Assembly: GCA_025922795.1 (NCBI GenBank)
Contig: JAICHC010000274.1
Location: 1 to 5,109 of the forward strand
Direction: 5' to 3'
Length of the DNA: 5,109 nt
From: Candidatus Binatia bacterium
GTDB taxonomy: Bacteria; Desulfobacterota_B; Binatia; UBA9968
Shown: in pieces, positions 1 through 5,109 of the stretch
Layout of the letters: every line of letters starts with the position of its first letter
Position numbering within the stretch: position 1 is the stretch's first letter
Position numbers and translations under genes: made by a program
Notes under the pieces: model-generated
What the model was told of the DNA's origin: nothing
Seen by the model: the letters and a program-made list of their open reading frames with translations, nothing else
The model's database searches: none

Positions 1-1303
1 AATCTTCGTGCTTCGCCGCTGCGCGCGCCAGTTCCAGTGCGCGACCATTGTCGCCTTCCGCCTTGGCGATCCACGACTCGATTACATTGATCTGGATGTC
101 AGCTTGATCCGCCCAGTAGGCCTGTTTGGCCGCGATCATTGCCGGTTTCACCCGCGTGGTGAGCCGCTCGAGTTCCGCTTTCGCCCCAGCGACATTGCCG
201 CTGCGCGCTGCGCCGACTCCTCGGGCGAAAACAGTCACGGCTACGGCATTGGGGAAATTGGTCCACTTGAACACGGCATCGCTCGGATGCGGCTTGAGCG
301 ACGCCGCTTCGGCCCAGCGGTCGCGTTCCAAGGTGAGCCGAGCCGGGATCGCCGCCAGCGCGAACGCAGCAGCGAGATTCTCGCCGGGAACTTTTTCTAT
401 TTTGAGGATCTCGTCGAGGCCGCGCCGCGCCTCACTGTCCTGGCCCATCTGCAGATAAGCATAAGTCATGTAGTCGAGCGCATGCAGTCGCGTGCGCAGG
501 TCCTTGGTCGCATTGAACGCGGCCCGGTTCGATTCGACGGAATCCTTCCAATAGCCTACACGGGTGAAAATGTGCGACGGCATGTGTAACGCGTGGGGGG
601 CCGACGGCGCGATGGTGGCGTAGCGCCTGGCGGCATCCAGGCCTTTTGCCGCAATCGGCGGGTAGTCGTAGCTATGGATGAGATAATGCGCCGCGCCCGG
701 GTGGTGCGGATATTTCTTGAACACGGGCTCGAGCAGTTTAGCCGCCATGAGTTGCTTGGTGTATTTCTTGTCAGTGGGCTCGAAGTTGGCCGACAGGGCA
801 AGGGCATACAGCACCTGCGCCTCGATATCATTCGAATACGCTTTGGCGATTTTTTCCATGGCTTTCTCATAGGCGAGAGCGCGCTGGCGGTGCGGCACGG
901 TATTGCCGTCTTTGTAAAACAATTCGAGCGCCGCGATGTAGTCGCGCTCGCGCTGCGTGTTTGCGCCGGTCGCCCTGGCTTTTTCTATCGCCGCCCAGCC
1001 GTTGGCCAGTTGCTTCGCGCTGATCGGCCAGACGAACGGATTGTCCTGGGTCGCAAGCGCGATACCCCACCAGGCCATGCCGCACTGCGGGTCGGCCTCC
1101 AGCACCGCTTCAAAAGCCTGGGTGACTCTGGGCCAGTCGAATGAATGGTAGAGGGCAGCGGCTCGCTGAAAACGTTTGCTCGCTTCGGCGTTGCAAGAAA
1201 CCGGGAAATTGACTTCGCCGAGACGCTCCCCTTGGGCCGACACGGCGCTACAGGTGAGAGCAAGGACGGCGAAAGTCAACGCAATCTGCAGAATCGATTT
1301 CAT
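1..1303 (-). CDS. Exported TPR-like protein of unknown function, C-terminus cut by window edge
   Basis: My translation of the minus strand from ATG at 1303 stays open for 434 codons to the left edge, so the C-terminus is missing. Residues 1-23 look like a Sec signal peptide: Lys at position 2, a hydrophobic core, and Val-Ser-Ala before a likely cleavage after A23. The mature protein is therefore probably periplasmic. Residues about 41-82 form a TPR-like helix pair ending in DPQCGMAWWG. Residues 200-259 hold the family's characteristic block, HHPGAAHYLIHSYDYPP followed by APHALHMPSHIFTRVGYW. I recognise this arrangement from widespread proteins annotated only as tetratricopeptide repeat proteins; no biochemical role is known to me. 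C38 and C74 could form a disulfide after export (inference). The start is supported by a good ribosome binding site. Upstream lies a near-consensus sigma-54 promoter, so expression is probably activator-dependent. Certain as a gene; function unknown. Confidence 0.93.
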   Translation of the reverse strand, partial: MKSILQIALTFAVLALTCSAVSAQGERLGEVNFPVSCNAEASKRFQRAAALYHSFDWPRVTQAFEAVLEADPQCGMAWWGIALATQDNPFVWPISAKQLANGWAAIEKARATGANTQRERDYIAALELFYKDGNTVPHRQRALAYEKAMEKIAKAYSNDIEAQVLYALALSANFEPTDKKYTKQLMAAKLLEPVFKKYPHHPGAAHYLIHSYDYPPIAAKGLDAARRYATIAPSAPHALHMPSHIFTRVGYWKDSVESNRAAFNATKDLRTRLHALDYMTYAYLQMGQDSEARRGLDEILKIEKVPGENLAAAFALAAIPARLTLERDRWAEAASLKPHPSDAVFKWTNFPNAVAVTVFARGVGAARSGNVAGAKAELERLTTRVKPAMIAAKQAYWADQADIQINVIESWIAKAEGDNGRALELARAAAKHED

Positions 1304-1404: not shown

Positions 1405-1419
1405 GCAATGGCGATGCCA
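1405..1419 (-). promoter_or_regulatory. Sigma-54 (RpoN) -24/-12 promoter of the TPR gene
   Basis: The minus strand reads TGGCATCGCCATTGCG from 1419 to 1404. The consensus is TGGCAY, a short spacer, then TTGCW. The -24 GG (1418-1417) and -12 GC (1406-1405) are exactly ten bases apart, as sigma-54 requires. TGGCAT and TTGC both match; only the last W is missed. Transcription would start near 1393, giving a leader of about 90 bases before the ATG. Two genes for GAFTGA-containing activators lie directly upstream, which strengthens the call. Confidence 0.8.
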
Positions 1420-1680: not shown

Positions 1681-1738
1681 ATCAAATACAACAAAAAGCC
1701 AGCACACCCGGGCGATCAATCGCCGGAGCGGCTGGCTT
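1681..1738 (-). terminator. Intrinsic terminator of the activator operon
   Basis: On the minus strand an eight-pair stem (AAGCCAGC at 1738-1731 with GCTGGCTT at 1703-1696) encloses a second small hairpin (GGCGA 1711-1715 with TCGCC 1720-1724, loop of four). It is followed by TTTTTGTTGTATTTG. Stem plus T-rich tail is the intrinsic-terminator pattern. On the plus strand no T-run follows, so it works leftward. It lies about 210 bases after the stop codon of the complete activator, leaving a long 3' UTR. Confidence 0.65.
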
Positions 1739-1946
1739 CAGACTCTCCTTGTCAAATTCCTCCGAAGAACGGTTGGCGTTGCTCCGCTTCGGCCTCACGT
1801 TACATGCTAAGGCTTCTCGAGGTTGGGGGAGGCGTATCGCGAGCGCAGGAATATCACATCACGAAAGGCTGTCAAGCAGATTTGCGCGCAAGCTTCGATT
1901 CGAAACCGAAACTTTTAAGAAAGATGCTTTATGACTTGTGCTGCTT

Positions 1947-3908
1947 TTATTTCGGACGCGGAATGCGCAGCGCTCGAATGCGGGAATTCAAGGTCGAGGG
2001 ATTCATGCCGAGTAACGCGGCCGCGCCGTCCTTACCGGCGACGCGCCAAGCGGCGGATTCCAAAGCCCGCAGGATGTTCTGGCGCTCCAGTTGCTGAAGC
2101 TCGCGAATTTGCAAAATCCGCTGGGGCACTTCCTCCGCTCTCTCTACTTTCAACGCGACATCGCGATGGCTCTCGCCTCTAACATCGGGTAAAGCGCGAT
2201 TAAGGTTAAGCCGGCCGTCTCGGGAGGTAATCACGGCGCGCTCGATGACGTTTTGCAGCTCGCGCACGTTGCCCGGCCAGACGTAGCTTTTAAGACGTTT
2301 CTTATGTTCCTCGGAGAGCGGTTCGATACTCCGGCCTAAACGTTGGGCGAATTTGGCCGCAAAAGCGGAGGCGAGCAAGAGAATGTCGTCGCTGCGTTCT
2401 CTCAAAGGCGGCACTTCGATCGGAAAAACGTTCAGCCGATAATAGAGATCATCTCGAAAGCAACCGCTTTTTACAGCCTGCTTGAGATCGCGATTGGTCG
2501 CGGCGATCACTCGAACGTCGACTTTTTTCGTTTCGGAGCTGCCGACCGGCGCGAACTCTCCCTCCTGCAACACGCGCAAAATTTTGGCCTGCAGGTCGAG
2601 CGATAGTTCGCCGATCTCGTCGAGAAAGATCGTGCCGCGGTCCGCCAGGCCGAAGCGTCCCTCGCGTTTTTGCGTGGCGCCGGTAAAGGCGCCTCTTTCA
2701 TGGCCGAAGAACTCGCTTTCCATGAGCGCGGCGGGAATGGCAGCGCAATTAACCGTGATCAAAGGCTTGTTTTGGCGGCGGCTCGCTGCGTGAATGGCAC
2801 GGGCGATTAATTCTTTGCCCGTCCCGGTTTCACCCAAAATCAACACCGTGGTATCGGTGCCTGCAACTTGTTCGATGTCACGAAGCAGTTCCTTGAGCGC
2901 TGGACTCTGCCCCAGAATCTGGTCGAACCCGCCCAGTGTTTTTACAGCCTCGCGCAGGTACTCGGCTTCGGCGGTGAGCGCATGAATTGTTTTTTCGGCT
3001 TCGAGACGATCGTTGACGTTTCTGAGAATGACCGTGTAAAAAGGCCGCCGCTCGATCTCGAAGCGCGACAGCGTGGCTTCAGCCGGAAACTCCTTGCCTT
3101 TCATGGGTGCCGCTTGAAGACCGCCGGCGATCCATAGCGAACGGCGGCCGTCTCGCTTGGCCTCAAGCTCGCGCATGAGAGCCAGGATCCTTTCGCGGCT
3201 CGGTTCGGAGAGGAAGTCGGTGAACTTTCCGCCGAGCATTTCCATCTCACTACGGTGGAAAGTTTTTTGGGCGGCGGGGTTAACACGGGTGATGTTGAGT
3301 CCCTGGTCGAACTCGATGATCGCGTCCATGGCGCTGTCGAACAACCGCCTCAGTTTTTCTTCCCGCTCTCGCAGCCGTTGCTCGGCGCGCAGCCTTTGCA
3401 GCTCGGCCGCCGCACGCGCGGCAAAGATCCGAAACAACGCCAGGAGTCGCGGTTCTTCGGGCATCGGGAGCGTGTCGAGCACGGCAAGGTGGCCGAGGAT
3501 CTGACCGTCGACGTCTAACAAAGGGACGCCCATGTAACTGACGGCGCCCATCGGCCCGAGATCCGGATCGTTGGGATACAAATCGACGAGTCGATCCGAG
3601 ATATGAACTAAGCGGCAATCTTTGAATACGGGCTCGCACGGCGTGCCGGCCAAATCGTACTCATAATCCTCGACGAATCGACCGCCGAGCCAGAAAGCCA
3701 CCGCTCGCAAGCGCTTCTCACCATGCCAGATCGTCACCCATGCGCCGTAGGTTCCCAGAGCTTTGGCGACATTTTCAACCAGGGCCGTAAAGAAACGCTC
3801 CCCTGTTTCTTTGGCCGTACCCTCCAAGATCTCACGCAGCACCGCCCCCTCGTCGGCAACTTGCAAGGGATTCTCAGTGAGAGTCTGCTCGGTCTTCAAG
3901 GATCGCAT
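1947..3908 (-). CDS. Sigma-54-dependent activator with GAF, PAS, AAA+ and Fis-type HTH domains
   Basis: This 653-residue bacterial enhancer-binding protein uses ATP hydrolysis to remodel sigma-54 RNA polymerase at -24/-12 promoters. A GAF domain spans about residues 25-170 (GVPLLDVDGQILGHLAVLD at 127-145). A PAS domain spans about 184-300, followed by a short coiled linker (301-322). The AAA+ module (about 328-560) shows Walker A GETGTGKE (359-366), the GAFTGA loop (406-411), Walker B TIFLDE (426-431), sensor ATNR (470-473), FRDDLYYRL (484-492) and WPGNVREL (544-551). The Fis-type HTH occupies about 607-650. There is no receiver domain, so it probably senses a ligand or redox state through GAF/PAS, as FhlA- and NifA-like proteins do, rather than through phosphorylation; the signal is unknown. 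An in-frame TGA seven codons upstream, with no other start between, supports ATG at 3908, although its ribosome site is weak. It follows its paralogue by 24 bases, so translation may be coupled. Confidence 0.95.
   Translation of the reverse strand: MRSLKTEQTLTENPLQVADEGAVLREILEGTAKETGERFFTALVENVAKALGTYGAWVTIWHGEKRLRAVAFWLGGRFVEDYEYDLAGTPCEPVFKDCRLVHISDRLVDLYPNDPDLGPMGAVSYMGVPLLDVDGQILGHLAVLDTLPMPEEPRLLALFRIFAARAAAELQRLRAEQRLREREEKLRRLFDSAMDAIIEFDQGLNITRVNPAAQKTFHRSEMEMLGGKFTDFLSEPSRERILALMRELEAKRDGRRSLWIAGGLQAAPMKGKEFPAEATLSRFEIERRPFYTVILRNVNDRLEAEKTIHALTAEAEYLREAVKTLGGFDQILGQSPALKELLRDIEQVAGTDTTVLILGETGTGKELIARAIHAASRRQNKPLITVNCAAIPAALMESEFFGHERGAFTGATQKREGRFGLADRGTIFLDEIGELSLDLQAKILRVLQEGEFAPVGSSETKKVDVRVIAATNRDLKQAVKSGCFRDDLYYRLNVFPIEVPPLRERSDDILLLASAFAAKFAQRLGRSIEPLSEEHKKRLKSYVWPGNVRELQNVIERAVITSRDGRLNLNRALPDVRGESHRDVALKVERAEEVPQRILQIRELQQLERQNILRALESAAWRVAGKDGAAALLGMNPSTLNSRIRALRIPRPK
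1962..3008 (-). repeat. Paralogous block duplicated at 4011-5057
   Basis: These 349 codons (coiled linker, AAA+ and HTH) align without any gap to 4011-5057 at a constant offset of 2049 bases. Stretches of 21 and 25 bases are identical (2838-2858 with 4887-4907; 2704-2728 with 4753-4777). The least similar part is the 22-residue linker between AAA+ and HTH. This shows a tandem gene duplication, old enough for considerable divergence, and it could mislead short-read assembly or read mapping. Confidence 0.85.
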
Positions 3909-3932: not shown

Positions 3933-5109
3933 CTAGGTTTTGCCATGCGAGATGGAACTGGAGGCACCGCGGTTCGCGGCCTCTTCTAGTCGCTGTTGTT
4001 CATTTTTCTGAATGTTGAAGGCGCGGATGCGTGAGTTCAGGGTCGAGGGATTGATGCCCAGAAGCTCGGCCGCTCCACTTCTGCCTGCAACACGCCACCC
4101 TGTGGATTCCAACGCCCGCAGGATATTGCTGCGTTCCAACTGTTGAAGCTCGTGCGCCTGAAGAATGGTTTTGGATAATTTACCGGAGGTGGGCCCCACC
4201 GGCACCGGACCGCTGCTTATCGTTACTCCGCCGTCGGGTAACGCTTTGTCCAAGTTAAGACGACCGTCCGAGGAAGTGATCACGGCGCGCTCGATAACGT
4301 TCTGCAACTCTCGAACGTTGCCAGGCCAGCTGTAGGCCGTGAGCCGTTGTTGACATTCCTCCGAAAGCGGCTCGATCAGGCGCCCCATGCGCCGGGCGGC
4401 GGTTTTGGCGAACGCTTTGGCAAGCGGTGCAATATCTTCCCGTCGGTCCCTCAACGGCGGAAGTTGAATCGGAAACACATTGAGCCGATAGTAGAGATCA
4501 TCTCTAAATTTTCCCTCCTTGACGGCCTGATCCAGACGACGATTGGTGGCGGCGATCACTCGAACATCGACTTTACAAATCCGGGAACTGCCGACCGGCG
4601 CGAATTCACCTTCCTGCAAAACGCGCAAAAGTTTGGCTTGCAGATCGAGCGATAGTTCGCCGATTTCATCGAGAAAGATCGTCCCCTGATCGGCCAGAGC
4701 GAAGCGCCCTTCTCGTCTTTGAGTCGCGCCCGTAAACGCGCCTTTTTCGTGACCGAAGAACTCGCTTTCCATGAGCGTCGCGGGAATAGCCGCGCAGTTG
4801 ATCGTGATCAGCGGGCGGTTCACCCTGCGGCTTCGTTGATGAATCGTTCGGGCGATTAATTCCTTGCCGGTTCCGGTTTCACCGAGAATCAACACCGTGG
4901 TATCGGTCACCGCGACTTGCGCGACGTCTTCCATGACAGATCTCAGAGCCGCGCTTTGACCGACGACCTCGTCAAAGCCGGCGAGCGAGTTTATGGTTTC
5001 ACGCAAATATTCGGTTTCGGCTTTGAGAGAATGAATTTTTTGCTCCGCTTCCAGGCGTTCGTCCTCCTCGCGCGTTTCGCCGCGTTTGCGCGTGCCGGCG
5101 ATCGGACGC
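3933..5109 (-). CDS. Sigma-54-dependent activator, AAA+ and Fis-type HTH, N-terminus cut by window edge
   Basis: The frame ending at TAG 3933-3935 is open to the right edge, giving 391 visible residues; the start and sensor domain lie outside. Residues 19-38 form a charged, probably coiled linker ([20 protein letters not shown]) nearly matching that of the downstream paralogue. The AAA+ module follows: Walker A GETGTGKE (about 76-83), GAFTGA (123-128), Walker B TIFLDE (143-148), [13 protein letters not shown] and WPGNVREL. The Fis-type HTH lies at about 327-365, followed by a 26-residue polar tail that the paralogue lacks. All residues for ATPase activity and sigma-54 contact are present, so it should be a working activator. 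Residues 1-18 are highly charged and lack the hydrophobic final PAS strand found at this place in the paralogue, so its input side differs. It is probably the upstream member of a two-gene operon. Confidence 0.93.

Follow-up and report, generated by a model that had tools for sequence, protein, structure and literature searches.

Gene layout of the window

The window, i.e. the whole stretch of 5,109 nucleotides that was analysed, holds a partial regulator 2, regulator 1 and a partial exported TPR gene, three genes in all, each on the minus strand. Regulator 1 starts 24 bases behind regulator 2, and the TPR gene follows after a gap of 643 nt. The features are:

3933..5108, minus strand: regulator 2, C-terminal 391 amino acids; AAA+ with GAFTGA, Fis-type HTH; runs off the window
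1947..3908, minus strand: regulator 1, 653 amino acids; GAF-PAS-sigma-54 AAA+ (GAFTGA)-Fis-type HTH activator
2080..2094, plus strand: second 9/10 GG-N10-GC match, TGGCGCTCCAGTTGC; a decoy within the regulator-1 coding sequence that shows the background level
1686..1739, minus strand: probable intrinsic terminator, a hairpin followed by UUUUUGUUGU, from RNA folding; sits between regulator 1 and the TPR gene
1405..1419, minus strand: candidate -24/-12 (sigma-54) promoter TGGCAT-CGCCA-TTGC, from motif and matrix score; predicted start near 1393
2..1303, minus strand: exported TPR/alpha-solenoid gene, N-terminal 434 of about 531 residues; runs off the window

The sequence-only reading had placed two sigma-54 activator genes next to the TPR gene, and this was borne out: they lie on the same strand, their GAFTGA motifs are intact, and the best -24/-12 match faces the TPR gene. 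It had also described a self-contained module with one alternative sigma factor. No rpoN is present among the three genes of the window, and "self-contained" is wrong because rpoN lies elsewhere. The close homologues P0007, P0014, P0019 and P0125 carry the name "Candidatus Binatia bacterium", which points to a lineage within Binatia.

The candidate promoter and its chance level

The pattern TGGCAY-N5-TTGC occurred once in the window, as TGGCATCGCCATTGC at 1419 to 1405 on the minus strand. The GG to GC distance is exactly 10 bases, as had been claimed, and the site faces the TPR gene with its last base 101 nt before the ATG. Scored against TGGCAC-N5-TTGC it reached 9/10, with both the GG/GC spacing and the TGGCAC/TTGC context. 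In 4000 first-order Markov simulations of the 643-nt gap, a gene-facing GG-N10-GC site of at least 9/10 appeared in a fraction of 0.012, or 0.033 when either strand was allowed. Simulations of the whole window (n = 1000) carried such a site in 26% of cases, and by consensus scoring the site at 1405-1419 was the joint best of the window, tied with the one at 2080-2094.

A family matrix was trained on the 11 promoters adjoining relatives of regulator 1 (see below). It gave the site at 1405-1419 the top score of the window with 10.5 bits, a value matched or exceeded by 5.4% of the gaps in 1500 simulations. In leave-one-out scoring the 11 training promoters reached 13.6 to 21.4 bits, so that the window site lies below all of them. 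Three relatives held out of training scored 13.8 (L109), 8.6, which is below the window site (L113), and 0.7 bits (L112). The flanks of the window site, an A before TGGC and a G after TTGC, differ from all 11 family promoters. Thus the site is a real match and the best of the gap. The earlier statement that it was very unlikely to arise by chance was too strong, given chance levels of 1.2% by consensus and 5.4% by family matrix and an equal match in coding sequence.

A probable terminator separates the TPR gene from the regulators

The 81-nt stretch 1680-1760 folded with a minimum of -33.5 kcal/mol (z -3.96), and none of 200 shuffled sequences was equally stable. The hairpin at about 1739-1686 lies some 207 nt behind the stop codon of regulator 1 and is followed by a U-tract; it was not among the hits of a simple scan. 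From the predicted fold we consider that it probably ends the regulator transcript and sets the TPR gene apart, which means that the TPR gene would need a promoter of its own. A simple scan of the minus strand yielded no sigma-70-like site. The Rfam matches SNORD26 and CcsR1 were rejected with scores far under the cut-off. The dyads TTCGA-A-TCGAA and TTGCGCGCAA shortly past the stop codon of regulator 1 were dismissed as chance-level occurrences, and no dyad of the window recurred in the flanks of regulator-1 relatives.

The two regulators

Both regulators contain a PF00158 AAA+ domain with an intact GAFTGA motif and an HTH_8 domain above cut-off; regulator 1 has GAF and PAS input domains in addition. 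The two genes are tandem paralogues whose products share 71% identity over 357 residues and an identical recognition helix of 11 residues that includes PSTLNSR. As tandem paralogous activators with a shared helix they could form mixed hexamers. Among the 25 NCBIfam families listed, regulator 1 fell under every cut-off (NorR, 381 vs 476 bits; NifA, 378 vs 529 bits), and its family is a separate and large one with at least 7999 homologues. Homologues P0122-P0240 are close to regulator 1, with about 70-99% identity. PADLOC matches of regulator 1 were rejected, since they trace to residues 304-648, where the AAA+ and HTH domains lie. Viral contigs contained two partial regulator matches at 48%, which were left out of the counts. 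A regulator-1 match was found in 0 of 59 genomes at E ≤ 1e-150 and in 0 of 250 genomes at E ≤ 1e-120, and a class-level search of 6 genomes gave no further relative.

Relatives of regulator 1 head a conserved cassette

Full-length or near-full-length relatives of regulator 1 numbered 14 (L101-L114) in 13 genomes, with 45-63% identity over the aligned length. Eight came from the phylum of genome G240, which we infer is probably Binatota (7 of 68 genomes, E ≤ 1e-110), and six from Acidobacteriota (6 of 396 genomes). G240 had been singled out by a looser search taken together with the G+C content of the loci. L107 is cut by a contig end. L108 (45% identical) is an additional copy from the same genome as L104 and may be a paralogue.

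The next co-oriented gene was mddA in six loci, L101-L105 and L107 (L101 and L103 above the NCBIfam cut-off, the other four by tblastn), where a small ORF may intervene before mddA. It was an OsmC-like gene in five, L106, L110, L111, L113 and L114 (all by tblastn, with L106 and L114 tested against Pfam), and also in L109 as judged from the first residues only. In L108 it was an ECF sigma factor gene, and L112 fits none of these target classes.

A candidate promoter lies directly downstream of the regulator gene in 13 of the 14 relatives, although it is weak in L113. Among the 11 loci with a located target start, a promoter match of at least 9/10 was present in the gap in 6, compared with 0.09 expected and 0 on the opposite strand; at 8/10 or better the numbers were 7 vs 0.72 expected, with 3 on the opposite strand. 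The best matrix site starts with TTGGC in 11 of 11, with a -12 element that is sometimes TTGT or TTGG; here the matrix fit forces one site per locus.

Just past the regulator stop codon, 13 of the 14 relatives carry palindromic enhancers with the consensus TCRCGAGATCTCGYGA, usually two and mostly 17 nt apart. They were scored with each locus, plus its sister for L101-L104, excluded from training, and reached 17.8-24.2 bits in 12 of 13 loci; L108 with a variant form scored 8.1 bits, and L112 had none. Only two sites reached 17 bits in 923 kb of other loci. An upstream control was left out of the counts for every locus, since for L107, whose contig stops within the gene, it had included downstream sequence. 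The whole arrangement of activator gene, TCRCGAGATCTCGYGA-like palindromes, TGGCAC-type promoter and mddA, OsmC-like or ECF sigma gene is present in 13 of the 14 loci, all but L112. For the mddA loci these elements predict sigma-54 control of dimethylsulfide production.

The window does not follow this pattern. Neither an mddA nor an OsmC-like gene was matched in it, and the next co-oriented gene is the TPR gene instead. The best score for a TCRCGAGATCTCGYGA-like enhancer in the gap was 2.0-2.5 bits, and 72.5% of simulated gaps reach 2.0; over the whole window the maximum was 6.2 bits. The proposed tie between the neighbouring activators and the TPR promoter was therefore not supported, the family enhancer being missing from gap and window alike. 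This leaves three options for the neighbours: they use a diverged enhancer, they use a distant one, or they leave the TPR gene alone. L107 and L114, both of which bear the enhancer, have the PSTLNSR part of the helix in common with the window. Behind the helix, 87 of the 120 listed regulator homologues read LRI or LKI, 13 read LGI and 3 fell outside the search expression; the 13 relatives with the enhancer all have LG[IVL] there. Because most homologues of the window regulator thus differ from the enhancer bearers at this place, the enhancer may have changed in the window.

Homologues of the TPR gene

The homologue set of the TPR gene consisted of 83 loci with 42-58% identity, mostly from one phylum reached via a Rokubacteria contig. 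L130 and L137 were left out as duplicates of L004 and L002, and the enhancer background above used all 85 loci. Loci L023-L100, which had flanks of 1.5 kb only, were superseded by longer regions and not counted twice. Gene starts of the homologues were set by rule. A scan of genome contigs for TPR relatives gave 22 loci, the best at 58% over a short piece, and 99 plasmid records matched, all below 60% identity; viral contigs contained no TPR relative. At E ≤ 1e-100 the gene was found in 0 of 68 genomes of the phylum of G240, the inferred home phylum, which gives no sign of conservation at the level of the lineage.

A -24/-12 site of at least 8/10 lies 47-63 nt before the TPR start in 7 of the 83 homologues (L004, L128, L129, L142, L143, L145 and L146); the corresponding distance bin of 45-65 nt was picked post hoc. 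The site of L004 is 10/10, and the sister pairs L128/L129 and L145/L146 each keep theirs. By the family matrix L004 scored 10.8 and L128 10.3 bits, close to the 10.5 bits of the window site. Counted 30-110 nt before the start over all 83 homologues, there were 7 sites of at least 8/10 vs 1.47 expected, and 4 of at least 9/10 vs 0.15 expected. A first pass over 41 homologues with 400 nt each had given 5 vs 3.7 and 2 vs 0.42, respectively. As a rough background, 545 ORFs of the same loci, with crude starts and including the TPR genes, had 22 sites of at least 8/10 and 7 of at least 9/10 at 10-120 nt. Measured against these ORFs the excess at TPR genes is about two- to fourfold. On the opposite strand, sites of at least 9/10 were seen within 200 nt in 3 of 83 loci compared with 4 of 83 on the gene strand (within 0-185 nt). 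Two of the three are one perfect outward site, TGGCACCGCAGTTGC, common to two related genomes and directed away from the TPR gene (L002, 471-485; L131, 3705-3719), and the third is the palindromic site of L128. L128 has a further 10/10 site at 6190-6204, 46 nt before the gene next after the TPR gene and on the same strand.

Of 21 genomes tested, RpoN (PF04552) was detected in 18; among these are 5 of the 6 that hold the seven TPR sites. Taken together, the recurrence among distant TPR homologues is suggestive, and no more than suggestive, of a real promoter. Conservation of the gene neighbourhood, a check that the sequence-only reading had set, turned out negative. The TPR gene was in the fetched flanks of 0 of the 14 regulator-1 relatives, and a sigma-54 activator in those of only 2 of the 83 TPR loci (L122, 1.2 kb away; L140, 5.5 kb away). 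Given this rarity, such promoters of TPR genes, if genuine, do not need an adjacent activator.

The TPR protein

Read by eye, the signal peptide of the TPR protein is MKSILQIALTFAVLALTCSAVSA. The partial protein of the window gave no family match at E 0.001, and its full-length relative P0001 (94% identical) contains TPR_16, TPR_2 and TPR_14 above the Pfam cut-off. The model of P0001 is a confident all-helical solenoid with a pLDDT of 93.4. A fold search with this model returned only generic solenoids among the matches listed (best TMq 0.43), from which no function could be assigned. The family is very large with at least 7997 proteins, of which P0001-P0024 are 80-94% identical to the TPR protein of the window. 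In residues 201-244 of P0001 the histidines H201, H206, H210, H237, H240 and H244 are invariant in 38 of 38 aligned homologues; on the exported alpha-solenoid this cluster is a possible metal or ligand site.

Interpretation of the site

On balance we lean slightly towards 1405-1419 being a genuine sigma-54 promoter, of no more than moderate strength, that serves the exported TPR gene. RpoN-bound RNA polymerase would occupy 1419-1405 and wait there for an activator. Transcription would begin near 1393, as judged from the spacing to the -12 element, and a leader of about 90 nt would precede the ribosome-binding site AAGGAG, recognized by eye. With the probable terminator of the regulator genes upstream of it, the TPR gene would be transcribed as a separate unit. 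In relatives of its neighbours, the enhancer that is missing here appears positioned for activation of mddA or an OsmC-like gene and, in one case, of an ECF sigma gene. The match, its orientation and spacing and the intact activator genes can be read from the DNA and the hairpin is predicted from it; promoter function is what they suggest. Francke et al. argue, in the part of their paper available to us, that sites with a high score and a correct position in front of a gene are very probably genuine (PMC3162934).

The main competitor, to which we assign somewhat less than an even chance, is that the 15-mer is meaningless and the TPR gene is read from another kind of promoter between terminator and start. 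The chance levels of 1.2-5.4%, depending on the scoring, do not yet allow for how many kinds of motif a reader has in view, and an equal match does sit in the coding sequence of regulator 1. That the TPR gene was found at E ≤ 1e-100 in none of the 68 genomes from the phylum inferred as its home points the same way. Against pure coincidence, strand, distance and spacing are all correct at once, and sites recur at a similar distance in some TPR homologues. A third reading, in which the site is no promoter and some ordinary repressor or activator uses it as an operator, is very improbable. The core ATGGC-ATC-GCCAT is a perfect 13-base palindrome with 5-base arms; yet such dyads are expected by chance, with 7 five-base dyads of spacers 0-12 in the gap and, by our own estimate, about 0.6 per 643 nt for the spacing of the core, and the RNA fold around the site is unremarkable (z 0.23).

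If the promoter is genuine, its activators could be the neighbours themselves. In this special case regulators 1 and 2 would jointly bind an enhancer in or near the gap and activate the TPR promoter directly, which we consider unlikely. The regulators are co-oriented and adjacent, share GAFTGA and the recognition helix, and nearly all relatives have a candidate promoter directly after the regulator gene. On the other hand, the family enhancer is missing despite a PSTLNSR stretch as in L107 and L114, and the TPR gene stands beside none of the regulator-1 relatives. The enhancer could have diverged, as the residues behind the helix suggest. Furthermore, the available part of a study on Desulfovibrio vulgaris documents enhancers able to act from afar and 23 sigma-54 operons of this species for which no enhancer was predicted (PMC4641369), so that the enhancer test does not refute direct activation by the neighbours. 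A yet more specific proposal, which we regard as still less probable, is that in a soil lineage, probably Candidatus Binatia, a duplicated activator pair was re-targeted from mddA/osmC-like genes to an exported alpha-solenoid by way of an altered enhancer and a newly gained sigma-54 promoter. If true, this would be regulatory rewiring caught in the act.

There is nothing unusual about an activator gene beside a sigma-54 target, so that little is gained from the window on its own. Of more interest is a by-product of the analysis, the mddA/osmC cassette: in two genome groups one activator family seems wired, by one sharply defined enhancer, either to an OsmC-like gene or to a methanethiol S-methyltransferase gene and with it to dimethylsulfide production. 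As a family member without that wiring, the window makes a change in enhancer specificity directly testable.

Comparison with known systems

In our literature searches, which mostly did not cover subscription journals, no paper was found that pairs mddA with RpoN. Sigma-54 appeared in none of the matches listed for mddA/methanethiol, OsmC in none of those listed for sigma-54 enhancer-binding proteins, and Binatota in none of those listed for sigma-54/RpoN. As far as the source was available, a soil mddA paper has nothing on mddA regulation (PMC5607357). The accessible main text of a 2025 comparison of sigma-54 regulons contains neither OsmC nor Acidobacteria, and a TPR COG is mentioned once, for Planctomycetes (PMC12316311).

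The site resembles a sigma-54 (RpoN) -24/-12 promoter in its TGGCA..TTGC and GG-N10-GC, for which the available part of the D. vulgaris study gives the consensus tGGcacg / tTGCt (PMC4641369). It differs by having T instead of C as the sixth base, by its flanking A and G, and by the lack of a detected enhancer. With NorR, NifA and FhlA the regulators share the sigma-54 AAA+ domain with GAFTGA and the Fis-type HTH, and regulator 1 also the GAF and PAS input; in contrast, regulator 1 stays below the NorR and NifA cut-offs and belongs to its separate large family.

HrpR and HrpS are paralogous activators that act together. Nitrogenase activators, too, are described as related activators acting together in the accessible part of one paper (PMC9542535). 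The pair in the window is like these in being related and in having the same DNA-reading helix.

Compared with the cassette of L101-L114, the window has two regulators, a probable terminator, a TPR neighbour and no enhancer, and its promoter lies 528 nt past the stop codon rather than 111-335 nt as in the 11 training loci. What it has in common with that cassette is a related regulator followed by a co-oriented gene with a candidate -24/-12 site.
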